A DNA stretch of 64,000 bases from Sandaracinaceae bacterium (lineage in GTDB: Bacteria > Myxococcota_A > Polyangia > Polyangiales > Sandaracinaceae). Shown here one piece after another: positions 44,156 through 58,239 of this stretch (positions are counted from its first letter, which is position 1; every line of letters starts with the position of its first letter). The DNA lies in assembly GCA_040218145.1 (NCBI GenBank), contig JAVJQK010000007.1, positions 62,001-126,000 on the forward strand. The letters are read 5' to 3'. Both the position numbers and the translations under genes were made by a program. The notes under the pieces are model-generated. The model made no database searches. It was not told the DNA's origin and worked only from the letters and a program-made list of their open reading frames with translations.

Positions 44156-46315
44156 ATGGCCATGGTCCGGCTGACCGACATCGTCGAGAAGGTGCGCAGC
44201 TATCATCCGGCCGCGGACGTCGACCTCATCAACAAGGCCTACGTCTACTCGGCCAAGGCGCACGACGGGCAGATGCGGAAGTCGGGCGACCCCTACTTCA
44301 TCCACCCCGTCTCGGTGGCGCACATCATCGCGGACATGCGCCTCGACCCGGCCAGCGTGTGCGCGGCGCTCCTGCACGACGTGGTCGAGGACACGGCGGC
44401 CACCAACGAGGAGATGGTGTCCCTCTTCGGCGAGGAGGTGGCCTTCCTCGTCGATGGCGTGACCAAGCTCGGCCGGATCAACTTCACCTGCAAGGAAGAC
44501 CAGCAGGCGGAGAGCTTCCGCAAGATGCTCGTCGCGATGGCGCGCGACATCCGCGTGCTGCTGGTGAAGCTCGCCGACCGGCTCGACAACATGCGCACCC
44601 TCCAGCACATGAAGCCGGAGAAGCAGGAGCGCATCGCCCAGGAGACGCTCGACATCTACGCCCCGCTCGCGGGTCGGCTCGGCATCTACTGGCTGAAGAG
44701 CGAGCTCGAGGATCTGAGCTTCCGCTACCTCCACCCCGAGGGCTACGGGGAGATCAGCCGCAAGGCCAAGCGCGCCGCGCGCGACCGCGACAAGTACATC
44801 CAGGACGTCACCAAGCGCCTGCAGAAGATGCTCATCGAGCGCGGCTTCGCGGCCGAGGTCGGCGGCCGGATCAAGCACAAGTACTCGATCTGGCGGAAGA
44901 TGCGTCAGAACAACTGCGAGTTCGAGCAGGTCCACGACTTCGTCGCCTTCCGCGTGATCATGGAGACCGTCGCGGACTGCTACGCGGCGCTCGGCGTGGT
45001 GCACTCGCAGTGGACGCCCATCCCGGGGCGCTTCAAGGACTACATCGCGCTCCCGAAGCCGAACATGTACCAGTCGCTCCACACGACGGTCATCGGCCCG
45101 GGCCAGCGCCGCATCGAGGTGCAGATCCGCACCCAGGAGATGCACCGCACGGCCGAGCTCGGCATCGCCGCGCACTGGAAGTACAAGGAGAAGACGGGCG
45201 GGCTGGACGCGAAAGACGCAGCGCAGTTTGCGTGGCTGCGACAGCTCATGGAGTTCCAGCAGGAGGTCTCGGACCCCGCGGAGTTCCTCGACTCGGTGAA
45301 GGTCGATCTCTTCAACGACGAGGTCTACGTCTTCACCCCGGCCGGCGAGCTGAAGGTCTTCCCGCGGGGCGCGACCCCGGTCGACTTCGCCTACGCGATC
45401 CACTCCGAGGTCGGCGAGCACTGCGCGGGCGCGCGGGTCAACGGGGCCATCGTCCCGCTCCGCTACAAGCTCCACAACGGCGACACGATCGAGATCATCA
45501 CCAGCCCGCAGCAGGCGCCCAACAAGGACTGGCTCGACTTCGTCGCCACCGGGCGCGCCCGCTCGCGCATCCGGGCCTTCATCCGCGAGGAGGAGCGCAA
45601 GAGCGCCATCAAGCTCGGCCGCGAGCTGGTCGAGCGCGCGTTCCACAAGCACGACCACTCCTTCTCCCGCTGGCTCAAGGGCAAGGACACGGGCGCGGTC
45701 GCGCGCGGCTTCGAGGTGGACACCACGGACGAGCTCTTCGCGCAGGTCGGCTACGGCAAGGCCAGCGCGCAGGAGGTCTACGACCGCGCCGTGCCGGCCG
45801 GGGACGAGGCGGCGCGCGAGTCGCTGCGGCCGAGCTTCTTCGAGAAGACCGTCCGCAAGGTCACGGGCAAGGACAAGACGAACGGCGGCATCCGCATCGC
45901 GGACGTCGACGACGTGCTCGTGCGCTTCGCCAAGTGCTGTAACCCCCTGCCGGGCGACCCGATCACGGGGTGGATCACGCGCGGGCGCGGCGTGACCGTG
46001 CACCGCCGCGGCTGCGCCAAGGCGATGGAGCTCGACCCGGAGCGCCGCCTCGAGGTCAGCTGGTCCGACGCGATCAAGGTCGACCGCCCCGTCGCGCTCC
46101 GCATCGCCACCGCGGATCGGCCCGGCATCCTGGCCAACGTCAGCGCCGCGTTCACCGAGATCGGCGTGAACATCCAGGAGGCGAACTGTCGGGTCGGCGA
46201 GGACGGCTCGGCCGTCAACCACTTCCAGTTCACCGTCAGCGACGTCGCCAAGCTCCGCACGCTCATGCGGCGGATCAGCCAGATCGAAGGCGTCTACGAC
46301 GTCGAGCGGGCGTGA
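44156..46315 (+). CDS. rel: Bifunctional (p)ppGpp synthetase/hydrolase
   Basis: A 719-residue RelA/SpoT homologue, maker and breaker of the stringent alarmone. The HD hydrolase domain (about 20-180) keeps HD in LLHDVVEDT (His74, Asp75). The synthetase domain (about 210-350) has RIKHKYSIWRKM, RFKDYIALPKPNMYQSLHT and EVQIRT, all intact, so both activities are expected. TGS (about 385-445, EVYVFTPAGELKVFPRGATPVDFAY), a zinc-finger/CC region (CCNPLPGD, HRRGC) and a C-terminal ACT domain (about 640-719) complete it. Its stop overlaps the GTG of the next gene, which begins the radical-SAM cluster. Confidence 0.97.
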   Translation: MAMVRLTDIVEKVRSYHPAADVDLINKAYVYSAKAHDGQMRKSGDPYFIHPVSVAHIIADMRLDPASVCAALLHDVVEDTAATNEEMVSLFGEEVAFLVDGVTKLGRINFTCKEDQQAESFRKMLVAMARDIRVLLVKLADRLDNMRTLQHMKPEKQERIAQETLDIYAPLAGRLGIYWLKSELEDLSFRYLHPEGYGEISRKAKRAARDRDKYIQDVTKRLQKMLIERGFAAEVGGRIKHKYSIWRKMRQNNCEFEQVHDFVAFRVIMETVADCYAALGVVHSQWTPIPGRFKDYIALPKPNMYQSLHTTVIGPGQRRIEVQIRTQEMHRTAELGIAAHWKYKEKTGGLDAKDAAQFAWLRQLMEFQQEVSDPAEFLDSVKVDLFNDEVYVFTPAGELKVFPRGATPVDFAYAIHSEVGEHCAGARVNGAIVPLRYKLHNGDTIEIITSPQQAPNKDWLDFVATGRARSRIRAFIREEERKSAIKLGRELVERAFHKHDHSFSRWLKGKDTGAVARGFEVDTTDELFAQVGYGKASAQEVYDRAVPAGDEAARESLRPSFFEKTVRKVTGKDKTNGGIRIADVDDVLVRFAKCCNPLPGDPITGWITRGRGVTVHRRGCAKAMELDPERRLEVSWSDAIKVDRPVALRIATADRPGILANVSAAFTEIGVNIQEANCRVGEDGSAVNHFQFTVSDVAKLRTLMRRISQIEGVYDVERA

Positions 46316-47274
46316 GCTTCGACGCCGAGCTCCGGCGTCACCTCCGAGACCACGGGGTGACGCTGGCGCAGCTCGAGGCGTCGGTCAGGCTGGAGGGAGA
46401 GGGCGCGCGGGCCGACCGCGTGATGATCGAGCGGGCGCCCCACGCATGCGTCGAGGGTCTGCGTCTCCTCCTGGGCGTGCCCGAGAGCCCCTGGATCACG
46501 CGGACCCTCGCCACCTGTGACGCGCTGGCGCTCCCGCTGATCGCGGGCTGGGACCGGACACGCGGGTGCCTGAAGCTCTACGTCAACGCGTCGGACGCCC
46601 CTGCGTCGGTGCGCCGAGAGGTCGCGGCGCGAGCCGAGCTCGACGGCGCGCCGCACGTGCTCGGCCTCAACCTCTTCGCAGGCGGGCAGGTCGAGCTGAA
46701 GCGCTATCTGCAGGCGCGCGACGCCGAGGGTCCCGCGCGGCGCCTGGTAGAGGCGGCGGGGGCGCTCTCGGCGGGCGTCGTCACCAGCCTCTACGCGGAC
46801 GGCTCCCCGCACGCGTATTTCGTCGCGCTGCGGCCCGCCTCTCCGGACGCGCTCGACGCCGCGTTCGGGTTCCTGCCCGGCTTCTCCTGGGACGCGATCC
46901 GCGCACACGCGCCCTTCGAGCCCGCGTCCCCGCGCTCGATCGGGGTCTCCGCCGCGGACACGGACCGGTGGACGGCCTACGTGAAGCCCCGCGACGCCGA
47001 CGCGCCCGCCCTCTGGTCGCTCGAGCCGGTGGTCGTGGTGCGCGCGGGAGAGACCGAGCTGGCGTTCTTCGTCGCGCCCGACGTGGAGGGCGCCCGCGCC
47101 TACGCTCGGCGCGGCGGCCGCGCGCTCTCGTACCGCAGCCACGGCCCCCCGCCCGCGCCGGCTTCCCTCGAAGGGCTCCTCGACTGGGCGCTCGGGCTCC
47201 TCGAAGACGACCCGCCCCCGGCCCCGCCTCCGCCCTGGCGCCTTCAGCGAGGGCGGAGCTCGTCGGCGCCGTAG
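46312..47274 (+). CDS. Unknown protein of the radical-SAM cluster, repeated strand pairs
   Basis: A 320-residue soluble protein with GTG start overlapping the rel stop. Its body repeats a strand-turn-strand pattern: LIAGWDRTRGCLKLYVN, HVLGLNLFAGGQVELKRYLQ, VTSLYADGSPHAYFVALRP, IGVSAADTDRWTAYVKP, VVVVRAGETELAFFVAP. Four or five such pairs alternate with helices, which recalls the ABBA fold of aromatic prenyltransferases, though I cannot show catalytic residues. The protein encoded at 52525-53388 shows the same pattern (WGAKHDGERLFWELYVYD). So a pair of related partner proteins flanks the cluster. Its 3' end overlaps the convergent dual radical-SAM gene by 31 bases. Confidence 0.65.
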   Translation: MSFDAELRRHLRDHGVTLAQLEASVRLEGEGARADRVMIERAPHACVEGLRLLLGVPESPWITRTLATCDALALPLIAGWDRTRGCLKLYVNASDAPASVRREVAARAELDGAPHVLGLNLFAGGQVELKRYLQARDAEGPARRLVEAAGALSAGVVTSLYADGSPHAYFVALRPASPDALDAAFGFLPGFSWDAIRAHAPFEPASPRSIGVSAADTDRWTAYVKPRDADAPALWSLEPVVVVRAGETELAFFVAPDVEGARAYARRGGRALSYRSHGPPPAPASLEGLLDWALGLLEDDPPPAPPPPWRLQRGRSSSAP

Positions 47275-49046
47275 AGCTCGACGTAGCCGCGGCGCACGCC
47301 GAAGCAGCGCGGTCGGAGCGCGCAGCCCTGGCAGGGATCGGGGTGAGACGTCTCGCCGTCGCCGTAGCCCTCGGGGACCTCGGCGATGGCGAAGGCGTCG
47401 AGGAGATCCTCGGGCGCGAGGCAGAGCGGCACGCCGCACATGGAGTCGAAGCCGCTCAGCCGGACCCCGAGGCGCGCGGCGGCGCGTACGCCGTCGGCGA
47501 GCCCGGGCATGACCTCTCCGTAGCGTGGGATCAGGGCCGTCGTGCGCGGGACCATGTCGGTCGACGGCGCGACGAAGGAGACGTTGATCTCCGCGCCTGG
47601 CCAGCGGGCCGCGACCGCCTCGACGTAGCCGGGGAAGGCGTCGACGTTGGCGCGGTGGAAGACGTAGCTGAGCCGGAGCCGGAGGCCGGCGCGCTGGATC
47701 GCGTCGAGCCCCTCCAAGGTCTGGGTGAAGGTGCCCGGCGCGCCCGTGATCGCGTCGGAGCGCGCGGCCTCCATCGCGTGCAACGAGACATGCATGATGT
47801 CGACGCCTGCGTCACGGAGCGTCGCGGCCAGCGCGTCGTCGACGCGGGTCGCGTTGGTCTGCACCTCGACGAGCGGGGCGCCCTCCGCCTTGGCCAGCTC
47901 CACGAAGCGCGTGAGGCGTGGGTGCAGGGTCGGCTCGCCGCCCGAGAGCGCGATGGCCGCGCCGCCGCTCGCCGCCTCCGTGATGGCGCGCTCCACGTCC
48001 GCGTCGGGCGCGCGGGGCAGGTGGGTGGAGACGAAGCAGAACTCGCAGGACTGGTTGCACGCGAAGACGATCCGGACCGTGCGCACGCGCTGCGCGGGGG
48101 CGCCTGGCGCGCGCATGATCTCGTCCTGGTAGAGCTCGCGCGCGACCTGGGCCTCGGGGGTGGAGATCAGGCTCAGCCGACGGCGCACCCGGTCGGCGTC
48201 GATCGGCCGCAGCGCCTGGTCCACCAAGACCTGGTCCAGCTCGCTCCCTTCGGGCACGCCCGGGCATCGGTCCGCGACCTGACAGCCGCCGCAGGCCGCG
48301 CGCTGCGCGAAGCCCGGTCGCGTCCGACCGCCCGGGGTGAGCGAGAACAGGTGCGCGTGGCGCGCGGGGTGCGCCAGGAGACAAGGGGGCAAGCTCGCGT
48401 GCGGGTCGAGGGTGAGCGAGAGGTCCACCCGCCGCGCCGCGTCGGCCACGCGCTCGAGGACCGTGGCCGCCTCGGGGAGCGGGAGCAGGGTGACGCGATC
48501 GGGCGCGTCCGTGGGCACCCCGACGCGCAGCGCGGCGATGGGGAGCGCGCGGAGCTGCGCGGGCAGGCGCGGGAGCGTCTCGGCGTTGGCCCGCACGATC
48601 GGCGCGCTCGCCTCCACCCGGAGGCCGGCCGCGGCGAGCGCCTCCACGCCGCGTCGCGTGGCCTCGTGTCCGCCCGGGTCCCGGGTGATCGCGTCGAGCG
48701 CCTCGCCCCAAGCCGGCAGGTGCACGCGCGCGGTGTCGAGCCCGGCCTCGGCCAGCGCCCGGGCGCGCCCGAGGTCGATCAGCGCGGCGTTGGTCTCCAG
48801 CTCCACGACCGTCGCGCGCGCCCTGGCGCGCCGGACCAGCGCGACGAGGTCTCGGCGCAGGGTCGGCTCGCCTCCCGTGAGCACCAGCGTCTCCGCGTCC
48901 GCCGCGTCGATGCGCGCCTCCACCGCGCTGCGCGCCACGAAGTCGGGCCGCTCGCGCGGCGCCCGCCGATCGCAGAAGGCGCAGTTCTGGTTGCAGGTCT
49001 CGTTCGTGTAGACCCGCGCCGTGTGGGCAATTCGCTCTTCAGCCAA
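47244..49046 (-). CDS. Tandem (two-module) radical-SAM protein
   Basis: A 600-residue protein with two complete radical-SAM modules. Module 1 has CNQNCAFC (Cys18, 22, 25) and GGEPT (58-62), and ends with a Cys cluster CGGCQVADRCPG (about 252-262). Module 2 has CNQSCEFC (Cys330, 334, 337) and GGEPT (369-373), and ends with CGVPLC and CQGCALRPRCFG near the C-terminus, like auxiliary [4Fe-4S] sites of SPASM/twitch enzymes. Both modules keep all core motifs, so both could be active. TTG start; its first 8 bases overlap the end of the His-rich protein gene, so the two are co-translated. Confidence 0.88.
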   Translation of the reverse strand: MAEERIAHTARVYTNETCNQNCAFCDRRAPRERPDFVARSAVEARIDAADAETLVLTGGEPTLRRDLVALVRRARARATVVELETNAALIDLGRARALAEAGLDTARVHLPAWGEALDAITRDPGGHEATRRGVEALAAAGLRVEASAPIVRANAETLPRLPAQLRALPIAALRVGVPTDAPDRVTLLPLPEAATVLERVADAARRVDLSLTLDPHASLPPCLLAHPARHAHLFSLTPGGRTRPGFAQRAACGGCQVADRCPGVPEGSELDQVLVDQALRPIDADRVRRRLSLISTPEAQVARELYQDEIMRAPGAPAQRVRTVRIVFACNQSCEFCFVSTHLPRAPDADVERAITEAASGGAAIALSGGEPTLHPRLTRFVELAKAEGAPLVEVQTNATRVDDALAATLRDAGVDIMHVSLHAMEAARSDAITGAPGTFTQTLEGLDAIQRAGLRLRLSYVFHRANVDAFPGYVEAVAARWPGAEINVSFVAPSTDMVPRTTALIPRYGEVMPGLADGVRAAARLGVRLSGFDSMCGVPLCLAPEDLLDAFAIAEVPEGYGDGETSHPDPCQGCALRPRCFGVRRGYVELYGADELRPR

Positions 49047-50103
49047 GGCCGGCCTCGCGCGCGAGCTCGTGTCGGAGGGCGGGGAAGTCCCGCTCGAAGC
49101 GCGCCGCGAACGCCTCCGGTCGGCGCACGTCGGCCCACGCGTCGACGCACGCGCGCGTGAGCCGCTCCTCGAAGAAGCGCGCCGCGCCCTCGGCCCGGCC
49201 TCGACGCAGCGCCGCGCGCGCCAGCCGGCGGAGCTCCGACATCTGCGAGGTCGGCACGCGGTGCATCGCGAGGGCGTGCATGCCCACGTCGTGGCCGAGC
49301 GCGTGGAAGTGGTTGTGCAGGTACGCGCGCGTCACGCCCGGGACCGGCAAGCGCCTCGACGCGGCGCCGAGCGCGCGCCCCAGCCGGCCGTCGATGTTGA
49401 CCGGGATCACCCCGCGCGAGAGCCGGCGCAGCCAGCCGCGCGGGGAGAAGATCGGCCAGCGGAGCCGGACCAGCTCGGGCTCGAGGCCGCCGAGCGCGCC
49501 GAGTCTTCGGCGGCGCCGCTGAAAGGAGGCGGGTAGCGGCACGGTGGAGACGCGGTGGTCGGCGTCGATCGCGAAGCCGAGGTCGCTGAGGTACGCCGCC
49601 ATGCGCGCGTCCTCCCGGAACGGGGCCGGCGCGTACATCAAGAGCTCCTGGTCGCGCACGACGACGGGGAAGCGCACGGAGGGCACGTCGTCTCCGGGGA
49701 GCGAGACCGCCTCGAGCGGCGCCCCGTAGTGGCGCGCGAACGCGTCGACGGTCGCCGCGAGCGCGGCGTCTCCCAGCAGCGCCTTCGCGTTGGACGCCGT
49801 GAGCGGGGTCGGCTGCGGCGGCTCGCTGCGGACCGCGTGGCGGAGGGTCGCGAGCGCCTCGTCCATCGCCTCGCGCGCGTCGGCCAGCCGCGGGCGCGCG
49901 GACTCCGGGTGGGCACCCTCGAGCCGCCAGTCGACCGCCCCGTCGCGCTCGACCGAGCGGAGCACGAGGTCCTCCGCGCTCGCCGTCACCGCGAAGCCGT
50001 TGTCGTCCGAGGTGACGCGGGTGCCGGTGAGCGACAGGCCCAGCCGTGGGGCGAGCGTCGCTTCGAAGCGATCGAACGCCGCCTCGATCGCCTGGGTCCG
50101 CAT
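49039..50103 (-). CDS. His-rich unknown protein of the radical-SAM cluster
   Basis: A 354-residue soluble protein. Residues 1-95 form a small alpha/beta domain (LGLSLTGTRVTSDDNGFAVTA...LRHAV) resembling the C-terminal extensions of two radical-SAM proteins of this cluster. Residues 120-215 are beta-rich (SVRFPVVVRDQELLMYAP). Near 263-281 is a striking stretch with seven histidines in 19 residues (HNHFHALGHDVGMHALAMH), a likely metal or haem site. The C-terminus is helical and basic. No family recognised. ATG 7 bases from TAGACT in the shared 24-base divergent promoter. Confidence 0.7.
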   Translation of the reverse strand: MRTQAIEAAFDRFEATLAPRLGLSLTGTRVTSDDNGFAVTASAEDLVLRSVERDGAVDWRLEGAHPESARPRLADAREAMDEALATLRHAVRSEPPQPTPLTASNAKALLGDAALAATVDAFARHYGAPLEAVSLPGDDVPSVRFPVVVRDQELLMYAPAPFREDARMAAYLSDLGFAIDADHRVSTVPLPASFQRRRRRLGALGGLEPELVRLRWPIFSPRGWLRRLSRGVIPVNIDGRLGRALGAASRRLPVPGVTRAYLHNHFHALGHDVGMHALAMHRVPTSQMSELRRLARAALRRGRAEGAARFFEERLTRACVDAWADVRRPEAFAARFERDFPALRHELAREAGLG

Positions 50104-50110
50104 GGCTCGC

Positions 50111-50120
50111 AGTCTATACT
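50111..50120. promoter_or_regulatory. Overlapping divergent -10 boxes in a 24-bp intergenic gap
   Basis: AGTCTATACT reads TATACT on the plus strand (50115-50120, 7 bases to GTG 50128) and TAGACT on the minus strand (50111-50116, 7 bases to ATG 50103). The two boxes share two bases, so only one polymerase can use them at a time. Confidence 0.6.
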
Positions 50121-50127
50121 GCGGCCC

Positions 50128-50853
50128 GTGGGCTCTCACGCGGCACAGATCCGAGCGCGCGGCTACGCGGTGTTCGAGGGCCTCCTCGATCCGGGGGAGA
50201 CCGCGACCCTGCGCCGCGAGGTCGAGGGCGTCATCGCGGAGATCGATCCGCCCGGCTTCTTCGCCCCGGACACCGTGCAGGTCGCCGACGGAGTGGCGGT
50301 GACCTCGACCGGGCTCGCGATCAGCCGCCTGTTGACCGCGCGCCCCGCGCTCCGGCCGCTGGTGCTCCGCGCCCCGGTCATCGAGGCGATGCGCGCCCTC
50401 CTCGGCCCGGACGCGCGGCTCGAGCTGCTCGGCGCGGTCGCGAGCGACGCGCGCCGCCCGTTCTTCAGCTGGCACACCCACATCGACGGAGAGGAGGAGG
50501 GCGAGCGGGTCAAGCGCGGCGTCTGGCCGCCCGTCGAGGGCATCTCGCGCGTGCTGACCCTGCTCTATCTCGACGACCTCGACGACGAGAGCGGGCCCCT
50601 CTACGTCTATCCGCGCCGCGAAGGCGACCCGACCCCACCCCCGCACCCGCTCGATGAGGAGGCGTGGCCGGACATGGTGGAGCTGCGCCCGAAGGCGGGC
50701 GACCTCGTCGCGCTCGAGCAGTGCACCTGGCACGCGGCGAAGTCGCTGCGCCGCCCGGGCCTGCGGCTCCTGGTGGGCGCCTACTTCGCCGCCGCGGACG
50801 CGCCCCGACCGAGCTGGCTGGACGAGGGTCTGGCCGCCGCGCCTTTGCTATGA
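50128..50853 (+). CDS. Phytanoyl-CoA-dioxygenase-like Fe(II)/2-oxoglutarate oxygenase
   Basis: A 241-residue double-stranded beta-helix enzyme. Metal triad: His118-Ile-Asp120 in WHTHIDGE and His202 in CTWHAAKSL; Arg213 (RPGLRLLVG) is placed to hold the 2-oxoglutarate carboxylate. All catalytic residues of a hydroxylating member are present. It starts at GTG, 7 bases from its -10 box, and leads the plus-strand operon 50128-54753. A paralogue that has lost the metal Asp is encoded at 54748-55503; both share EGLxD/Y at the start and GAYFA near the end. Confidence 0.85.
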   Translation: MGSHAAQIRARGYAVFEGLLDPGETATLRREVEGVIAEIDPPGFFAPDTVQVADGVAVTSTGLAISRLLTARPALRPLVLRAPVIEAMRALLGPDARLELLGAVASDARRPFFSWHTHIDGEEEGERVKRGVWPPVEGISRVLTLLYLDDLDDESGPLYVYPRREGDPTPPPHPLDEEAWPDMVELRPKAGDLVALEQCTWHAAKSLRRPGLRLLVGAYFAAADAPRPSWLDEGLAAAPLL

Positions 50854-52520
50854 TGGGCGCCGTGACGCGGTCGCCGCGAGTTGCCCTGGTGTCCGTCGAT
50901 CCGGTCTGGGAAGATCCGAGCGGCGACTTCACCCCGTTCACCTACTCGGTGCGCAAGCTCGAGGCGTCGCTGCGCGCGGACCCGAGCTTCGATGACGTCG
51001 AGGTGAAGGTCATCGACCTGCGCGAGCGCGACCCGGAGGCGTTCTTCGAGGCCATCGTCGACTTCCGGCCGACCCTCGTCGGCGCGTCGATCTATCTCTG
51101 GTCCATCGGACCCTTCCGGGACCTCGCGGCGCGCATCAAGCGCTGGGACCCGTCGGTGCAGGTCGTCGTCGGGGGCCCGCAGGCGCGTCCGTCGGTCTTC
51201 GCGCTCGAGCCGTATCGCCCGCTCCAGCGCACGGTCGACGCCGCGGTGACGGGCGAAGGAGAGGGCGTCTTCCGCGACATCGTGCGCGCCCATCAGCGGG
51301 ACGGCTGGACCTCGATGCCCGGGCTGCTCGTGCCGCACGCGCTCGGGTGGCGGAGCACTGGGCCGCTCGAGCGCGTGGACATCGAGGCCTTCCCCACGCC
51401 GTACCAGCTCGACATCGCGCCCCACGGGTTCACGGGCTACCTCGAGACCTATCGGGGCTGCCCCATTCACTGCAACTTCTGCCAGTGGGGCGAGCAGCGC
51501 GCGGACCGCGTGCACTCGGCCGAGTACCTCGCGCGTCACCTCGAGGGGCTCCGGCGCGCGGAGGTGCCGAACATCTTCTGCCTCGACGCGGCCTTCAACC
51601 TGAGCCCGCGCGCGTTCCGCAACCTCGCCGAGGCGGAGCGGCAGACGGGCGTGCTGGCCGACAGCCTCGTGCACGGCCACCTCTACCCGACCTTCCTGCG
51701 TGACGAGCACGTGGAGCTGCTGACCTCGTTCGGGCGCTGCCAGGTGGCGATCGGCGTGCAGAGCTTCGACGCGGAGGTCCTGCACGGGCTGGGGCGGCCC
51801 TTCGACCTCGAGCGCTTCGAGCACGTCTGCGACGTGGTGCGCGAGCACTGGCCGATCGAGCTCGAGCTGATGCTGGGGCTGCCGGGCGACAACCCCGCGT
51901 CCTTCCGGCGCACCTTCGAGAAGGCGGTCGAGATCGCCGACTCCGTGCGGGTCTTCTGGACCCTGGTGCTGCCCGACGCGCTGCTCGACCGGGCCGATCC
52001 GAAGCACGCGATCGAGTTCGATCCGGAGACCTGGCTCATCCGCTCGTGCAAGGGCTGGGCGCCCGAGGATCTCCGCCGCGAGCTCGACCACGTCAAGCAA
52101 GTGTCGTTGCAGCACGAGAACGCCGTGGTCGCTGATCACTGGGCCGGCTTCCAGGTGCGGCGCCGCGCGGAGCAGCGCCCGGGCCCGCGGAGCATCGACG
52201 ACGACGCGGACCGCCGCGTCATCGCGGTCGACCCGGAGCTGGTCGAGGAGCTGCGCGCGCGCGTCGGCGCGGTCGGCGGCTGGCGTCTGCGCACCATCCG
52301 CAATCGACACGACGGGCTCTTCTTCGACCTCGACTCGCCTGACGGGCGCGTGACCCTCGAGGTGGTGAAGGCGGCCGAGGGCCAGCCCCGCTTCGAGGCG
52401 CGCGACGGGCTCGCCTACTCACACCGCGGCGAGGTCAGCCGGCTCGAGGTCGAGCGGCTGCGGCGCGTGATCGCCGCCGTGCACCCCGACGCGCTGCCGC
52501 TCGTGCAAGAGAGCGCCTGA
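50850..52520 (+). CDS. Cobalamin-binding-type radical-SAM protein
   Basis: A 556-residue protein of the class that joins a B12-binding Rossmann domain (about 8-145, VGASIYLWSIGPFRDLAARIK, VVVGGPQARP) to a radical-SAM barrel with CPIHCNFC (Cys204, 208, 211) followed by QWGEQ. Such enzymes methylate unactivated carbons or rearrange rings. The B12 domain lacks a DxHxxG motif, as is common in this class. Residues 465-556 are an extra domain also seen in two neighbours. The ATG overlaps the previous stop, but a TATGAT (50849-50854) lies 7 bases before a GTG at 50862, an alternative start. Confidence 0.87.
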   Translation: MMGAVTRSPRVALVSVDPVWEDPSGDFTPFTYSVRKLEASLRADPSFDDVEVKVIDLRERDPEAFFEAIVDFRPTLVGASIYLWSIGPFRDLAARIKRWDPSVQVVVGGPQARPSVFALEPYRPLQRTVDAAVTGEGEGVFRDIVRAHQRDGWTSMPGLLVPHALGWRSTGPLERVDIEAFPTPYQLDIAPHGFTGYLETYRGCPIHCNFCQWGEQRADRVHSAEYLARHLEGLRRAEVPNIFCLDAAFNLSPRAFRNLAEAERQTGVLADSLVHGHLYPTFLRDEHVELLTSFGRCQVAIGVQSFDAEVLHGLGRPFDLERFEHVCDVVREHWPIELELMLGLPGDNPASFRRTFEKAVEIADSVRVFWTLVLPDALLDRADPKHAIEFDPETWLIRSCKGWAPEDLRRELDHVKQVSLQHENAVVADHWAGFQVRRRAEQRPGPRSIDDDADRRVIAVDPELVEELRARVGAVGGWRLRTIRNRHDGLFFDLDSPDGRVTLEVVKAAEGQPRFEARDGLAYSHRGEVSRLEVERLRRVIAAVHPDALPLVQESA

Positions 52521-52524
52521 AGCC

Positions 52525-53388
52525 GTGACGCTCCGAAGAACCCAGCCCGGCGATCGCTACTTCGACTACTGCCTTCAGCCCTACCGGCCGCGCCGCCCTC
52601 CCGAGGGCAAGCTCCGCGCGGACAACCTGCTCTTCCGCAGCCTGGAGCTCGCCGGTCTGCGCGCGGAGGCGCAGCCCGTGCTCGACGCGCTCGTGGAGGG
52701 GCTCGGGCGTGACATGGTGGTCTGGGGCGCGAAGCACGACGGCGAGCGGCTCTTCTGGGAGCTCTACGTCTACGACCCGCAGAAAGAGGACCCGCGCGCG
52801 ACGGTGACCGGGCTGACGGAGATCCTCGCGCCGCACCTGCGGATCGTGCCCGAGGTGCGCGAGACCGTGCCCTACATGATGGTCAGCTTCGATCTCGACG
52901 CGGAGATCCTCGCGCGCGGCGAGGTGCCCGAGCTGAACCTCTACCTGACCGGCACGGACGCGCACGAGGGCCGCAGCTACGTCGTGCGCGAGGACCGGCG
53001 CGAGCTGGCCAACACCTACCGGTTCCTGCGGCCCAAGCCCGAGATCGACACCGTGCTCGGCCTCTTGAAGAGCAGCCTCTTCCTCGACTACACCGACCCG
53101 CGCGTGCTGGCCGACGTGATGCCGCCCGAGCTGTTCGCGTGCAAACGTGTCTGCGTGGCGAAGAAGCGGCTCCGGGACGGCGTGTACTACTCGGGCGTGG
53201 ACGTGGACGCGCTGCTCTGGTTCCTCGAGCGCCGCGGCTGGCCGGCCGCGCTGATCGAGTTCACGCGGACGCACGCGGCGGAGCTCGACCACCTGTACTT
53301 CGACGTGGGGCTGGACTTCGAGCCGGACCTCTCGCCCAACTCGGACGGCGTGCGCGCGACGAAGACGAGCTTCTACGGGACGCTCTAG
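52525..53388 (+). CDS. Unknown protein of the radical-SAM cluster, repeated strand pairs
   Basis: A 287-residue soluble protein, GTG start 4 bases after the B12 radical-SAM gene. It opens with an aromatic stretch (GDRYFDYCLQPYRPRRPP), and then repeats strand pairs: MVVWGAKHDGERLFWELYVYD, YMMVSFDLDAEIL with VPELNLYLTG, CVAKKRLRDGVYYSGVDV, LYFDVGLDFEPDL. The pattern matches the protein at 46312-47274 and is reminiscent of ABBA-fold enzymes. It has no cofactor motif that I can see, so it may be a scaffold, a substrate carrier or an enzyme of new type. The next gene begins 3 bases after its stop. Confidence 0.65.
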   Translation: MTLRRTQPGDRYFDYCLQPYRPRRPPEGKLRADNLLFRSLELAGLRAEAQPVLDALVEGLGRDMVVWGAKHDGERLFWELYVYDPQKEDPRATVTGLTEILAPHLRIVPEVRETVPYMMVSFDLDAEILARGEVPELNLYLTGTDAHEGRSYVVREDRRELANTYRFLRPKPEIDTVLGLLKSSLFLDYTDPRVLADVMPPELFACKRVCVAKKRLRDGVYYSGVDVDALLWFLERRGWPAALIEFTRTHAAELDHLYFDVGLDFEPDLSPNSDGVRATKTSFYGTL

Positions 53389-53391
53389 CCA

Positions 53392-54753
53392 GTGCAGAGC
53401 TACAAAGGCAGATTCGAGCCGACGCGCTTCGAGGACCTGACGGTCACGGTGGACTTCCACTGCCACTCGGCGTGCCGCTTCTGCATCGTGCAGGAGGGCA
53501 TGAACCTCTACCGCGGCGTGCCCTTCGAGCGCTTCCAGCAAGCGGTCGACGAGAACGGGCAGGCCCCGCGCTACCACCGCGTCACGTTCACCGGCGGCGA
53601 GGTCACGCTCGAGAAGCGGCTCTTCGACTACCTCGACTACGCGCGCGAGCGCGGCGGCTTCTCGCACATCCGGCTGCAGACCAATGGCCGCCGCCTCGAG
53701 GACCGCGCGTTCGCGGAGCGCCTGGTCGAGGCGGGCGTGGACGAGTTCTTCGTCTCCCTGCACGGCCCGGACGCGGCGACCCAGGACTACATCTCGCAGC
53801 GCGAGGGCTCCTTCGACGAGGCGTGGCGGGGGCTGATGAACCTGCGCGATCTCGGCGTGACGGTCATGACCAACACCGTCCTGACCACGCTCAACGTCGA
53901 CCACCTCGCGCGCATCGTCGACACCGTGGCCGAGCTCGCCCCGGCCCGCATGGAGTGGTGGAACTACCTCCCGATGGAGGACAAGACCGACGAGCGCGGC
54001 CTCATCGTGCCCATGGAGCGGCTCGCGCCCGCGCTGGTCGAGGCGCTCGATCGCGCGAAGGCCCACGCGATCCCCTGCGCGGTGAAGTACGTGCCGCGCT
54101 GCCTGCTCGGCGAGCACGGCGACGTCATCGACAACACCCAGCCCGACGTCGTCATCGTCGAGGAGTTCTACGACCTCTACCCGAAGTTCGCGTGCCTCTG
54201 GGAGGCCAAGTGCGAGCACAGCGAGGCCTGCCTCGGGCTCACCCACGAGTACGTGCACAAGTACGGCTGGGAGGCCGACCGGCTCGTTCCCACCGCGCGC
54301 AGCACCCCGTGGGAGGAGCCCGAAGACGGCCTCGCCTTCGGCAGTGACGACCCTCGCGGCGCGGCCCGCGACGCGGCGCCGAGCGGCGATCACCCCGCCT
54401 GGCGCGCCCTCGTCGAAGGCGTCGCGGAGCCCCTCGGCGCGCGCCTCGAGGGGCTGCTCCTCGACCGGCGCCGCTGCACCTACCGCTTCGTCGTCGGCGA
54501 GGCCAGCGTGGACGTCGTCTTGACCAAGCGCAGCGACGAGCGGCCCGCGTTGGCCCGCACCCGCTCGTTCAACGTCTCCTACCGCAACCTCCGCCTGCCC
54601 GAAGGCGCCGAGCGAGAGCGCGCCGTGCTCGTGCGCGTCGTCGAGGCGGCCACCCGCGCCGTCGCCACCCGAGACGGCGGCGCCATGCTGCTCGACGAGC
54701 GCAAGGGCCTCATCGGCCCCGAGTCCCTGCGCCGTCCCCGAAAGCGTTCATGA
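53392..54753 (+). CDS. Radical-SAM protein with C-terminal accessory domain
   Basis: A 453-residue protein, GTG start. Radical-SAM core with CHSACRFC (Cys24, 28, 31), GGEVT and LQTNG. After the barrel, cysteines in PCAVKYVPRC and FACLWEAKCEHSEAC suggest one auxiliary Fe-S cluster. Residues 345-430 form the small alpha/beta domain also found at the C-terminus of the B12 protein and the N-terminus of the His-rich protein. Its stop and that of the convergent oxygenase gene interlock as TCATGA, leaving no intergenic space. Last gene of the plus-strand operon. Confidence 0.87.
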   Translation: MQSYKGRFEPTRFEDLTVTVDFHCHSACRFCIVQEGMNLYRGVPFERFQQAVDENGQAPRYHRVTFTGGEVTLEKRLFDYLDYARERGGFSHIRLQTNGRRLEDRAFAERLVEAGVDEFFVSLHGPDAATQDYISQREGSFDEAWRGLMNLRDLGVTVMTNTVLTTLNVDHLARIVDTVAELAPARMEWWNYLPMEDKTDERGLIVPMERLAPALVEALDRAKAHAIPCAVKYVPRCLLGEHGDVIDNTQPDVVIVEEFYDLYPKFACLWEAKCEHSEACLGLTHEYVHKYGWEADRLVPTARSTPWEEPEDGLAFGSDDPRGAARDAAPSGDHPAWRALVEGVAEPLGARLEGLLLDRRRCTYRFVVGEASVDVVLTKRSDERPALARTRSFNVSYRNLRLPEGAERERAVLVRVVEAATRAVATRDGGAMLLDERKGLIGPESLRRPRKRS

Positions 54754-55503
54754 GCGACGCGGTCGGCGCGCGAGCACGGACGCGAGCAGCGCGTCGTCGG
54801 TCTCGAGCGCGTCCAGGCTCGGGTCGTGTCCTTCCGTCGGGGCCGCGTGCTCGGACGCGAAGTAGGCGCCGATGAAGCGGCGGCGGCCCGGGCGCAGGCG
54901 CGGGATCACGCAGTGCCACACGCTCTCCTCGAGCAGGAGCACCGTGCCGGCGCGGAGCGAGAGCTCGACCTGACCCGGCCACTCGGGCTGATGGATGGAC
55001 GCGGGCGGATCGACGGGGTCCCCCACTGCGCGGGGCAGCACGCGCCACGGGCCGGTCTCGGGGCCCATGTCCTCCAGGAAGAGGAAGTGCACCACGCGGC
55101 GGATCGCGTCCTGTCGCGGTCGCTTGCCCGCGCGGCGCCAGCGCTCGTCGTCGATGCCGCCGAGGTGCGACTCCCACTCCGTGAACCCGCGGCCCTCGTC
55201 CGAGAGCACCGCGCCGACCAGCTCGAGGTGCATCGCGTCGCCGAGCACCTCGCGGAGCGCGTCGACGGCGGCGTCGGTGAAGAGCCGCGGGCCGAGCTCG
55301 GGCGCGAGGCCGAGCAGCGAGTAGAAGGCGAGGCCCGGCCCCGCGATCTCCACGCCATCGGCCAGCCAGACGGGCTCCTTCGCGTGCAGCGGCGGCGCGC
55401 CGAAGCGGGCGTGCAGCGCGTCGAGGGTGTCGCGCAGCTCCACGAGCGCGGCCTCGTCGTAGAGCCCCTCGAGGATCTGCCAGCCCTGCGTCCGGAGCGA
55501 CAC
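54748..55503 (-). CDS. Phytanoyl-CoA-dioxygenase-like protein with HxG metal motif, halogenase-like
   Basis: A 251-residue paralogue of the oxygenase at 50128-50853. Aligned by WxxH (WHTHIDGE against WESHLGGI), its first metal His113 is followed by Leu-Gly, so the Asp of HxD is Gly115. The distal His197 (SVWHCVI) and the 2-oxoglutarate Arg (RPGRRRFIGAYF) are kept. Loss of this Asp to Ala or Gly is the mark of Fe/2OG halogenases such as SyrB2 and WelO5, where halide takes the open site. Asp118 nearby might instead bind metal, or the protein may be inactive. Its GTG follows the upstream stop directly (TGAGTG). Confidence 0.8.
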   Translation of the reverse strand: MSLRTQGWQILEGLYDEAALVELRDTLDALHARFGAPPLHAKEPVWLADGVEIAGPGLAFYSLLGLAPELGPRLFTDAAVDALREVLGDAMHLELVGAVLSDEGRGFTEWESHLGGIDDERWRRAGKRPRQDAIRRVVHFLFLEDMGPETGPWRVLPRAVGDPVDPPASIHQPEWPGQVELSLRAGTVLLLEESVWHCVIPRLRPGRRRFIGAYFASEHAAPTEGHDPSLDALETDDALLASVLARRPRRS

Positions 55504-58239
55504 TCAGCGAGGCTCCCGGAACGAAGGCGAGGCGACGTGCTTCGGCGCGTTGGCGCGGGCGAAGGGCAGCCCCGCCGCCGCGAGCCGATCGATCACCTCG
55601 GCGCTCAGCGCGCTTGCCGCGTCCGCCACGTCCGGGAGCGAGGCGTCCGGGAGCGAGCCGCCCTCGCGCACGATGCGGACGAAGGACTCGAGCATGCGCG
55701 CGTCGGCCGCGTCGAGGGTCGCCGTCGCGTCTCCTCGATCCGCCGCCAGGTCGAGCCGCGGCGCGCCTCCATCCAGCTCCAGCGTCACGTCGATTCGGCG
55801 CTGCTCGCATCGCAACTGGAGCTGCACCCGCTCGGGGCGCGACGCGCCGACGAAGCGCGCATCCTCGAGCGCCGCGCCGGGGTGTCGCCACAGGACCAGC
55901 GCGAGCACGTCCTCGAGGAGCGGGGCGAGCCCGCGCCGAGACCAGGCGGCCGGCGCCCGCGGCCCCACGCGATGCACCACCCGGAGCAGCGGGCCCTCCA
56001 TGTCGTCGAGGCCGTAGCCGAGCAGGAGCGGGTGGGCCGGCGCGAGGGTCGGCACGCCGCGATCCCGCGCGAGCGCCGCCAGCGGTGCGCTCCGCCCCGC
56101 CACCACCACCGCGTCGGGGCGGATGGCGTCGAGCGCCTCGGTCGGGTCGGTCCAGCGCGGGCAGTCTCCGAACGCCGGGTCCACCACCTCCTCCGCGTGC
56201 GGGCCCACGACGGCGTCGAGGGAGGCGCCCTCGACCTGGCGCAGCGCCGCGGCCAGCTCCGCCGCGCGTCGCCCGTCACCGAACAGGGCGACGCGGACCG
56301 GGCGCGTGCCGCGGGCGATGGGCCGCGTGGGCAGCGCCCGAATCCCCGTGTCCGCCGCTGCGCCCCGCGCCTCGGCCTCGCGGTCTCGGAGGAACGACGG
56401 CAGCGCCTCGAAGTCGCTCGGCGGCAGCCCCCAGGGCTCGCGCTTGATCGCGCGGATCGCGGCCAGCTCGTCTTCTCCGAACGGCGCGCCCTCGATCGGC
56501 GTCAGCTCGTCGGTCCCGTGGCGCTCCGCGTACGGCCTCCACACCCCCGTGCAGACCCGCGTGTAGCGACACCGATCGCAGCCCGACGCGCGCGTCTTCT
56601 GGGGCGTGTCCTCCGCGATCCCCGCCGCCGCGTGCTCGAAGATGTCCGACCACGCGCGGAAGGCCCCGAGCCGGCACGGCGGGATCCCCTGGCGCGCGCC
56701 GATCCACGCGGGCTGATCCAGCGCGAGCGCCTCGCTCATCGCCGCCTCCAGGTGCGGCTGGAGCGCGCTCATGCGGGGCATCATCGCGAGATCCTCGAGC
56801 GCCTTGTACTGCGGGGTCACGAACGCGAACGAGATGGCCACCCGGCCCTCGAAGCGCCCCCGCACGAAGCGCACGAACGACGACAAGAAGCGCATGTTCT
56901 CGGTCGTGATCACGTGATTGACCGTGGTCTTGACGCCCGCGTCCGCGAGCAGTCCCGTGGCCTTCACGGTGCGATCGAAGTCGCCCTCCTTGCGCGTCAG
57001 GTGCCGGCTCAGCCGCTCGTCGTGCGCGTGCAGGGAGACGAAGGCGTGCGTCAGACCGGCGTCCGCCAGCGCGCGCACCTTCGCCTCCCGGTCGAGCAGC
57101 GTGCCGTTCGTGACCAGCTCCACCTCCGCGATCCCGAGCCGCCGCGCCTCCGCCACGTACCGCGGCAAGCCCTTGGCCAGCGTGGGCTCGCCCCCGCCGA
57201 ACGCGAGCCGCGAGACGCCGCGCTCGGCCGCGCGCACGATCTGCTTCAGCATCGCGTCGTCCGACGTCCACACGTTCGCCGACGTCTCGTTCGCGCTGCA
57301 GAACACGCAGTCCTGGTTGCAATTCACCGTCGGACGCAGGACGAGCAGCCCGGTCCGCTTCGCCGCCTCCCGCCGCTCCTCTGTCCACTCCTCATGCGGG
57401 GTGCTGCGCTGGTGGTAGAGCGCGCTCGGCCGCTCCGGAAACGGCCTCAGCCCCACCTCGCCGTGCGCCTCCACCTGCCTGCGCGGGACGCCCGGACACT
57501 GCGCGGCGCAGGCGCAGCCCGCGCACACGGCGGGCCGCACGCACCCGAAGGCCGGCTCGCGCTCGCGCTTGGGGTCGAAGCGGAAGACCTCGCCGCGCTC
57601 GGGCAGCGCGCAGAAGGGCACCCCCGCGTCGCGGTTCAGCGCCGCCTCGATCCCGGCCTCGGCGCACCAGGCGAGGGCCTCGTCGAGGAGCGGGCCGCTC
57701 TCGGTCCAGGGAGGGGTGACCAGCTGCGCGTGCACCTCACCGCGCGGAGCCACGAAGCGCGCCGCGGCCACCCGATCGCAGGAAGCCCGGGCGCGCTGCA
57801 CCACGGAGAGCGGGTGCGAGAGCCTCCGCGCGAGCACCGGCACCTCGATCTCCACCCGCAGACCCGCCGAAGCGAAGCGCTCGAGCGCCTCGAGGCTCTG
57901 TTCGAGCTGCCCCGGCGAGCCGACGATCCGGTCGTGCACCGCGGCCACGTGCGAGAAGAGCGGCACCCTCACCCCGCTCGCGCCCGCGTCGACGAGGTCC
58001 TCCGCCCGCCAGTTCCCGTGCGTGTGCACCACGCGCTCGGACCAGCTCGCCTCCGCCGACGCGACGAGCATCGCGCGCGCCCACGCCGCGTCGCCCCGCA
58101 GCGTCAGCCGCCCCCCTCCGTGCCGGGCCGCCGCCGCCGCGTCCGCCGACGCCGCCTGTCCCGTCGCGCGGCAGAGCACGCACGCCCGGTCGCACCCCGA
58201 CGGCGCGTGCAGCGTCACATCCCGTCCGCGCGACCTCAC
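55504..58239 (-). CDS. Triple fusion: two radical-SAM modules plus Gfo/Idh/MocA-like oxidoreductase
   Basis: A 911-residue protein. Module 1 has CDRACVLC (Cys16, 20, 23) but no GGE motif (LTLRGDA stands there), so it binds a cluster yet may be a degenerate barrel; it ends with CAGCACAAQCPG. Module 2 has CNQDCVFC (Cys307, 311, 314), GGGEPT and the terminal cluster CDRCRYTRVCTG (about 554-564). From about 646 a Rossmann domain (VRVALFGDGRRAAELA) and a beta-sheet domain follow, as in Gfo/Idh/MocA oxidoreductases. Modules 1-2 are related to the tandem protein at 47244-49046. GTG start 6 bases from TAGAAT. Confidence 0.85.
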   Translation of the reverse strand: MRSRGRDVTLHAPSGCDRACVLCRATGQAASADAAAAARHGGGRLTLRGDAAWARAMLVASAEASWSERVVHTHGNWRAEDLVDAGASGVRVPLFSHVAAVHDRIVGSPGQLEQSLEALERFASAGLRVEIEVPVLARRLSHPLSVVQRARASCDRVAAARFVAPRGEVHAQLVTPPWTESGPLLDEALAWCAEAGIEAALNRDAGVPFCALPERGEVFRFDPKREREPAFGCVRPAVCAGCACAAQCPGVPRRQVEAHGEVGLRPFPERPSALYHQRSTPHEEWTEERREAAKRTGLLVLRPTVNCNQDCVFCSANETSANVWTSDDAMLKQIVRAAERGVSRLAFGGGEPTLAKGLPRYVAEARRLGIAEVELVTNGTLLDREAKVRALADAGLTHAFVSLHAHDERLSRHLTRKEGDFDRTVKATGLLADAGVKTTVNHVITTENMRFLSSFVRFVRGRFEGRVAISFAFVTPQYKALEDLAMMPRMSALQPHLEAAMSEALALDQPAWIGARQGIPPCRLGAFRAWSDIFEHAAAGIAEDTPQKTRASGCDRCRYTRVCTGVWRPYAERHGTDELTPIEGAPFGEDELAAIRAIKREPWGLPPSDFEALPSFLRDREAEARGAAADTGIRALPTRPIARGTRPVRVALFGDGRRAAELAAALRQVEGASLDAVVGPHAEEVVDPAFGDCPRWTDPTEALDAIRPDAVVVAGRSAPLAALARDRGVPTLAPAHPLLLGYGLDDMEGPLLRVVHRVGPRAPAAWSRRGLAPLLEDVLALVLWRHPGAALEDARFVGASRPERVQLQLRCEQRRIDVTLELDGGAPRLDLAADRGDATATLDAADARMLESFVRIVREGGSLPDASLPDVADAASALSAEVIDRLAAAGLPFARANAPKHVASPSFREPR

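Follow-up and report, generated by a model that had tools for sequence, protein, structure and literature searches.

A nine-gene cluster of a Sandaracinaceae bacterium with radical-SAM, ABBA-fold and Fe/2OG proteins and a C-terminal domain associated with His-Xaa-Ser peptide systems

Three enzymes of different classes, encoded in a nine-gene cluster of a Sandaracinaceae bacterium, end in a common domain that is found almost only in genomes with His-Xaa-Ser (Hxs) systems. The best explanation, to which we give about even chances, is that the cluster prenylates, oxidizes and halogenates aromatic residues of an Hxs ribosomal peptide, with the shared domain docking the three enzymes. The cluster lies within a window of 64,000 nucleotides (the whole stretch of DNA analysed) from a genome of 11.06 Mb in 148 contigs.

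Gene content of the cluster

All nine ORFs of the original prediction, here called g1 to g9, were found at 46312 to 58239, with spacings between neighbours of -31 to +24 bases. The first overlaps a preceding relA/spoT-like gene (44156 to 46315; name read from the sequence) by 4 bases, and the last is followed by 170 bases and then a short downstream gene.

g1, 46312 to 47274, plus strand: ABBA-fold prenyltransferase-like protein of 320 aa, shared domain at the C terminus
g2, 47244 to 49046, minus strand: double radical-SAM protein of 600 aa (PF04055 twice)
g3, 49039 to 50103, minus strand: protein of 354 aa with a conserved His/Asp-rich motif
g4, 50128 to 50853, plus strand: Fe/2OG (PhyH) protein with an HxD motif (PF05721, E 2.1e-5)
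g5, 50850 to 52520, plus strand: B12-binding radical-SAM protein of 556 aa (PF02310 and PF04055), shared domain at the C terminus
g6, 52525 to 53388, plus strand: second, divergent ABBA-fold protein, of 287 aa; marker of the cluster family
g7, 53392 to 54753, plus strand: radical-SAM protein of 453 aa (PF04055, E 8.7e-24), shared domain at the C terminus
g8, 54748 to 55503, minus strand: Fe/2OG protein with an HxG motif (SHLGG)
g9, 55504 to 58239, minus strand: double radical-SAM protein of 911 aa (PF04055, E 1.8e-29)

The six radical-SAM modules and four radical-SAM proteins originally predicted were recovered, with exactly six CX3CX2C motifs (two in g2, one in g5, one in g7 and two in g9) and PF04055 matches in the proteins at 47244, 50850, 53392 and 55504. 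Of the two proteins described as PhyH-like, the one at 50128 exceeded the PhyH cut-off, whereas that at 54748 gave a weak match below it. Two of the three proteins considered unassignable, g1 (46312) and g6 (52525), can now be given a predicted ABBA fold; the third is g3 (49039). The earlier interpretation is partly supported, and it missed the chemistry suggested by two ABBA-fold prenyltransferase-like proteins and one halogenase-type oxygenase.

The best curated model for g2, g7 and g9 was NCBIfam HxsC4, in all cases under the cut-off (g2 scored 118 bits where 500 are required). In g5, a B12-binding domain (PF02310) accompanies PF04055 and CX3CX2C, and its nearest PDB relatives were TokK (E 4e-19) and CysS (5.6e-10); the cut-offs of the curated B12 radical-SAM methylases (KedN5 and others) were not reached (KedN5, 74.6 bits; cut-off, 700). 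The enzyme likely methylates carbon with B12. Within g9 there is a weak GFO/IDH/MocA-like region (PF01408, E 0.13, under the cut-off). Among 57 fetched loci, a full-length g9 homologue was seen only in L032, a nearly identical contig from the MAG Sandaracinaceae bacterium MED-G138 (97 to 100% identity from the g3 start through g9), which places g9 outside the conserved core.

Of 96 related genomes, the window genome being one of them, 13 carried the g6 family. It was also present at 45 named loci in the species collection, which come from myxobacteria, Gammaproteobacteria, Methylobacterium/Methylorubrum and others. A g7 homologue was located at most 1.5 kb from g6, on the same strand and before or after it, in 47 of 48 distinct loci (the 57 fetched less 9 duplicates); in the exception, the sequence ends 23 bases past the g6 match. 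Of the 48 loci, 15 have a g5-like gene and 8 have g1; several contain genes for Fe/2OG and double radical-SAM proteins. The g1 family occurred in 10 of the 13 genomes with g6 and in none of the 83 without it (Fisher, 2.5e-11). In many genomes the core genes stay together in one neighbourhood and are not scattered, which supports the prediction of a new biosynthetic or modification system; the gene set varies, and the gene at 55504 is not conserved. Genes of relatives were called with a home-made GC-based caller, and their starts are approximate.

Tandem duplicates of the g6-g7 pair were seen in two strains of Enhygromyxa, in Paraliomyxa and in two MAGs (L041, L044, L045, L046 and L074). In a Sandaracinus amylolyticus-assigned genome (G001), a large region at about 414 to 451 kb (L022, L088 and L089) contains many additional radical-SAM genes; homologues of g1 and g2 lie there at 11 to 26 kb from g6. 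In Methylorubrum aminovorans (L066, 5831 to 11790), an O-methyltransferase, a P-loop protein, a Trp-halogenase, g6 and g7 form one run; the Trp-halogenase has a long C-terminal extension that appears ABBA-like by eye. The C termini of Methylorubrum and Methylobacterium Trp-halogenases in general resemble ABBA proteins by eye, but the matches in L062 and L064 reached only E of about 0.1 to 0.7.

Candidate prenylating and halogenating proteins

Confident predicted models and fold searches assigned the ten-strand ABBA barrel to both g1 and g6. The 50 matches listed by VIA-align for each of the two models were all prenyltransferases, the TM-scores to solved prenyltransferases being only 0.33 to 0.53; AmbP3, AmbP1 and FamD1 were the best Foldseek matches. 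The predicted fold is like that of the ABBA aromatic prenyltransferases (AmbP3/FamD1, LimF, PatF and DMATS). Unlike these, g1 and g6 matched no curated aromatic-prenyltransferase sequence model in Pfam or NCBIfam, and they would therefore constitute new ABBA-fold families, distinct from Trp_DMAT and Orf2; g1 also differs in its additional C-terminal domain. A PDB sequence search with the g1 profile returned nothing, and that with g6 only rows at E 0.16 or worse. No significant relation between g1 and g6 emerged from profile comparison. In reference ABBA enzymes, basic and Tyr residues serve the prenyl diphosphate. This basic-x-Tyr pattern is kept in g1, whereas g6 has a different set of conserved residues and lacks the pattern on its even strands and in the usual places, which makes its transferase activity doubtful. 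Of the two, g1 would transfer a prenyl group, and g6 perhaps too.

The two Fe/2OG proteins, g4 and g8, are 37% identical. An alignment of 25 rows gave WHTHIDG (HxD) as the g4 motif and SHLGG (HLG, hence HxG) as that of g8, and HxG was present in 11 of the 16 distinct PhyH proteins of the fetched loci (9 of the 25 rows were set aside as duplicates or nearly so). According to the excerpts of PMC11186838, an HXG/A motif picks out Fe/2OG halogenases. When a sequence of the WelO5 family from the locus of a relative (family match at E 5e-54) served as query, 6 of the 48 distinct loci gave matches. A halogenated product is thus predicted from the HxG motif of g8 together with the WelO5-family matches in relatives. 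In g8 and many relatives, HxG replaces HxD as in the halogenases of the WelO5, BesD, AdaV and SyrB2 types, from which g8 differs in being PhyH-like and in having no solved relative by sequence search. Going by the motifs, g4 likely hydroxylates, and g8 is a predicted halogenase that likely chlorinates.

For g3, the most likely start is the ATG at 50103, in agreement with most homologues in its alignment (A4). Fifteen homologues were found, and the conserved His/Asp-rich motif, HFHALGHD-x-G-x-HALAMH, is possibly a metal site. There was no Pfam match below E 0.06 and no PDB match, and the sole NCBIfam match was weak (PRK13373, E 0.0019; score 17.5 bits, cut-off 462).

The shared domain and the Hxs systems

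An iterated HMM search seeded with the C termini of g5 homologues alone revealed a domain of about 80 residues, absent from Pfam, that is common to the C termini of g1, g5 and g7.

Shared domain in g1, 47029 to 47190, plus strand: residues 240 to 293, partial
Shared domain in g5, 52251 to 52490, plus strand: residues 468 to 547, among the profile seed sequences
Shared domain in g7, 54409 to 54663, plus strand: residues 340 to 424

The search converged at 80 ORFs out of 3,996 (a count that includes duplicate loci), and over the rounds the best E value of the reversed decoys ranged from 0.011 to 0.99. Both g1 (round 2, E 8.6e-10) and g7 (round 3, E 1.1e-10) were reached before their own inclusion, and a g1 profile alone detected the domain in other proteins (domain E values, 2.3e-4 and 3.4e-4). 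Direct comparison of the g5 and g7 C termini was weak (P 0.017), so that the homology of these two rests on the iterated search. A search of the PDB sequences with the domain profile gave no match.

Further carriers included a PhyH-amidohydrolase (L025, 5248 to 7782), other B12- and radical-SAM proteins and a g3 homologue (L041, 11515 to 12723; round 4, E 8.6e-8). For the window proteins g3 and g9, the domain was not significant (0.17 and 0.094, respectively), nor was a profile comparison of the g3 family with it (P 0.06). A WelO5-like halogenase (L028, 6894 to 8201) carried the domain in the first search (E 4.2e-10), as did a relative (L071), but both failed at E < 1e-3 in the stricter iterated search; the two are among the 32 rows of the alignment (A3) used for the genome counts given below. 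The domain was also seen preceding another radical-SAM type (L120, 7540 to 9930; L024, 7241 to 8500; L074, 18948 to 20264), for a similar protein of which (L125, 14097 to 15497) the nearest models were PA0069/Rv2578c.

Fusion of one domain to unrelated enzyme classes of a single pathway suggests a common partner, as with the RREs of RiPPs and the carrier peptides of pearlin pathways (PMC9303977). The shared domain would dock the three enzymes onto the Hxs system. The genome counts (thresholds: domain, E ≤ 1e-6; HxsB, E ≤ 1e-30) were in agreement with such a link. HxsB, a maturase of the His-Xaa-Ser system, was found in 36 and the domain in 27 of 96 relatives, HxsB being present in 25 of the 27 domain-positive genomes (the exceptions were G015 and G056) and in 11 of the 69 domain-negative ones. 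For genomes of at least 5.5 Mb, the values were 23 of 25 and 9 of 34, respectively. In a phylum-wide draw of 207 genomes, all 38 domain-positive genomes, 29 of them outside the first 96-genome sample, had HxsB, compared with 35 of 169 domain-negative genomes (Fisher, 1.6e-21). HxsB is itself widespread (73 of the 207), and it occurs without the domain in 11 of 36 HxsB-positive relatives and in 35 of 73 genomes of the draw; a coupling at genome level can also reflect shared ancestry.

Domain matches 0.8 to 1.0 kb from hxsB were found in the window genome (G000) and in G061, G076 (two places), G136, G168, G208 and G274, those of the last four genomes sitting in open frames of 161 to 321 aa. In the three Hxs operons read out (G000 C70, G061 and G076 C154), a stand-alone domain protein precedes hxsD. 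These stand-alone copies (L123, L124 and L031) show a Tat-like twin-arginine stretch near the start, starts being approximate, which is odd for a partner of cytosolic maturases. On a wider scale, only 8 of 28 HxsB genes had a domain match within 10 kb and 20 had none.

Between the g6-g7 pair and HxsB, distances of less than 6 kb were observed in four loci: L022, L031 (/L076), L074 (Paraliomyxa miuraensis) and L045, the last with only the C-terminal end of HxsB. In L022 (assigned to Sandaracinus amylolyticus), a g5 homologue, g6, g7 and a PhyH gene are followed by hxsD, hxsB, hxsA4 and hxsC4, all on one strand with a 44-base gap between the enzyme and hxs genes, and HxsA4, HxsB, HxsC4 and HxsD are all above the curated cut-offs. 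The window genome has two Hxs operons on other contigs (L121, 10980 to 15686, C33; L123, 9641 to 14650, C70), which hold HxsA4 repeat peptides, from two hxsA4 genes, and HxsB. All eight HxsA4 sequences examined end in Trp. This holds also in a genome lacking g6 (G014, L126), and the terminal Trp is thus not specific.

The window cluster resembles the Hxs systems (HxsA4/HxsB/HxsC4/HxsD) in the HxsC4-nearest proteins g2, g7 and g9 and in the shared domain. It differs from them in lacking hxsA, hxsB and hxsD, in scores far below the HxsC4 cut-off, and in its additional ABBA, Fe/2OG and B12 enzymes; no Hxs model was above cut-off among the matches listed for the nine proteins. The statement that no precursor peptide lies inside the cluster was correct, there being no intergenic room for such a gene, and HxS repeats were absent from the window. 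The claim that the cluster falls outside RiPP logic is doubtful, since the domain found on three of its proteins is linked to Hxs systems for ribosomal peptides, the same genome has two hxsA4 genes elsewhere, and HxsB lies close to g6-g7 in four relatives.

Possible substrates and significance

The partner of the shared domain is most likely to be found in the Hxs system, which would make the cluster an Hxs tailoring arm. Its substrate and product are inferred as follows. The precursor would be HxsA4, of which the genome encodes two Trp-ended copies outside the cluster, and the radical-SAM proteins g2, g7 and g9 would activate it. B12-dependent C-methylation of the peptide would be due to g5, hydroxylation to g4 and chlorination to g8, while g1, and perhaps g6, would transfer a prenyl group onto it. 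Several results speak against this reading: the cluster itself contains no hxs gene, the non-myxobacterial genomes tested have g6-g7 but lack HxsB, 41 of 85 domain matches lie near neither g6 nor HxsB, and 20 of 28 HxsB genes have no domain match within 10 kb.

A less probable alternative is a small-molecule pathway in which a free aromatic compound derived from Trp or indole is prenylated and halogenated, the shared domain being structural or for assembly, with no peptide carrier. Among 21 genomes tested from the 45 named loci, all 13 non-myxobacterial genomes with g6-g7 lacked HxsB, and all 8 myxobacterial ones had it; the g7 proteins of the 13 showed no match to the domain. The core pair thus does not need Hxs. 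The Methylorubrum operon, which joins g6-g7 to an O-methyltransferase and a Trp-halogenase protein, also points to a small molecule, as do the WelO5-type halogenases of relatives and the best Foldseek matches (AmbP3/AmbP1/FamD1), which belong to hapalindole-type alkaloid pathways. However, a small-molecule pathway leaves unexplained the fusion of one domain to ABBA proteins and to radical-SAM proteins with and without B12, as well as the presence of HxsB in every domain-positive genome of the phylum draw. It may be that g6-g7 is an older core for prenylating indoles or peptides, which became linked to Hxs in myxobacteria.

We consider it improbable that the cluster is a RiPP pathway with a different, unrecognized precursor and Hxs merely a frequent neighbour. 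A domain common to several enzyme classes would fit leader-peptide recognition in general, and 41 of 85 domain matches in 23 genomes were near neither HxsB nor g6. Against this, called ORFs of at least 60 aa from the loci of 12 relatives (crude caller) yielded on clustering no common small-ORF family except an HxsD-like one in two loci, and the window cluster leaves no intergenic space.

It is very unlikely that the cluster makes the chlorinated 4-prenylindoles of Sandaracinus, the indiacens. According to the excerpts of PMC4660955 and PMC9306752, the producers are S. amylolyticus and S. defensii, and G001, assigned to the former, has the cluster; of its three PhyH proteins there, two are of the HxG type. 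This pathway was dropped because G001 and its genus-mate G006 have a separate Trp_DMAT gene above the curated cut-off, far from the cluster, whose flavin-oxidase-like, MFS-like and P450-like neighbours, in shared order, make it a better candidate; moreover, the cluster is present in many other families. The candidate indiacen clusters are at L128 4910 to 12708 (G001) and L130 5607 to 13459 (G006), with neighbours named from sequence reading. The window genome has its own Trp_DMAT gene, some 26 kb past the end of the window (G000:C7:152328-153095).

Viperin-like anti-phage defence is hardly credible and was dropped: the best matches of PADLOC pVip models (g2, E 2.3e-23; g9, 1.9e-18; g7, 1.2e-13) and of the candidate-defence model PDC-M51A (g5, 3.2e-16) look like generic radical-SAM matches, NCBIfam viperin gave 61, 53 and 38 bits for g2, g9 and g7, respectively (cut-off, 180), and g1, g3, g4, g6 and g8 matched no PADLOC model.

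A bolder and rather speculative version of the Hxs reading, less probable than a small-molecule pathway, is that the Trp-ended HxsA4 repeat peptide is a scaffold on which the enzymes dock via the shared domain. Its C-terminal Trp, or the His repeats, would be prenylated, methylated and chlorinated, and the decorated residue would then be cut off as a small natural product. By analogy, this would liken the cluster to the pearlin pathways, in which, in the excerpts of PMC9303977, many enzymes, a B12-radical-SAM enzyme included, act on one ribosomal scaffold; it differs from them in that none of the nine proteins had a PEARL-like or protease match in Pfam or NCBIfam. If true, this version would for the first time give Hxs systems a function, and the recognition domain would be of a new kind.

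The components taken singly, namely Hxs systems, ABBA prenyltransferases and Fe/2OG halogenases, are of known kinds. What did not turn up is the three in combination, the constant radical-SAM/ABBA pairing or the shared domain among the literature matches listed, which included no title or abstract describing this cluster or domain and no described product of an Hxs system; the excerpts of PMC9062424 mention HxsB and HxsC only as putative maturases. On the preferred reading, that of Hxs peptide tailoring, the occurrence of one Hxs-coupled domain on prenyltransferase-like, radical-SAM and B12-radical-SAM proteins offers a handle on the substrate and also on the missing recognition step. In addition, the cluster supplies new candidates for enzymes that prenylate and halogenate peptides or indoles.
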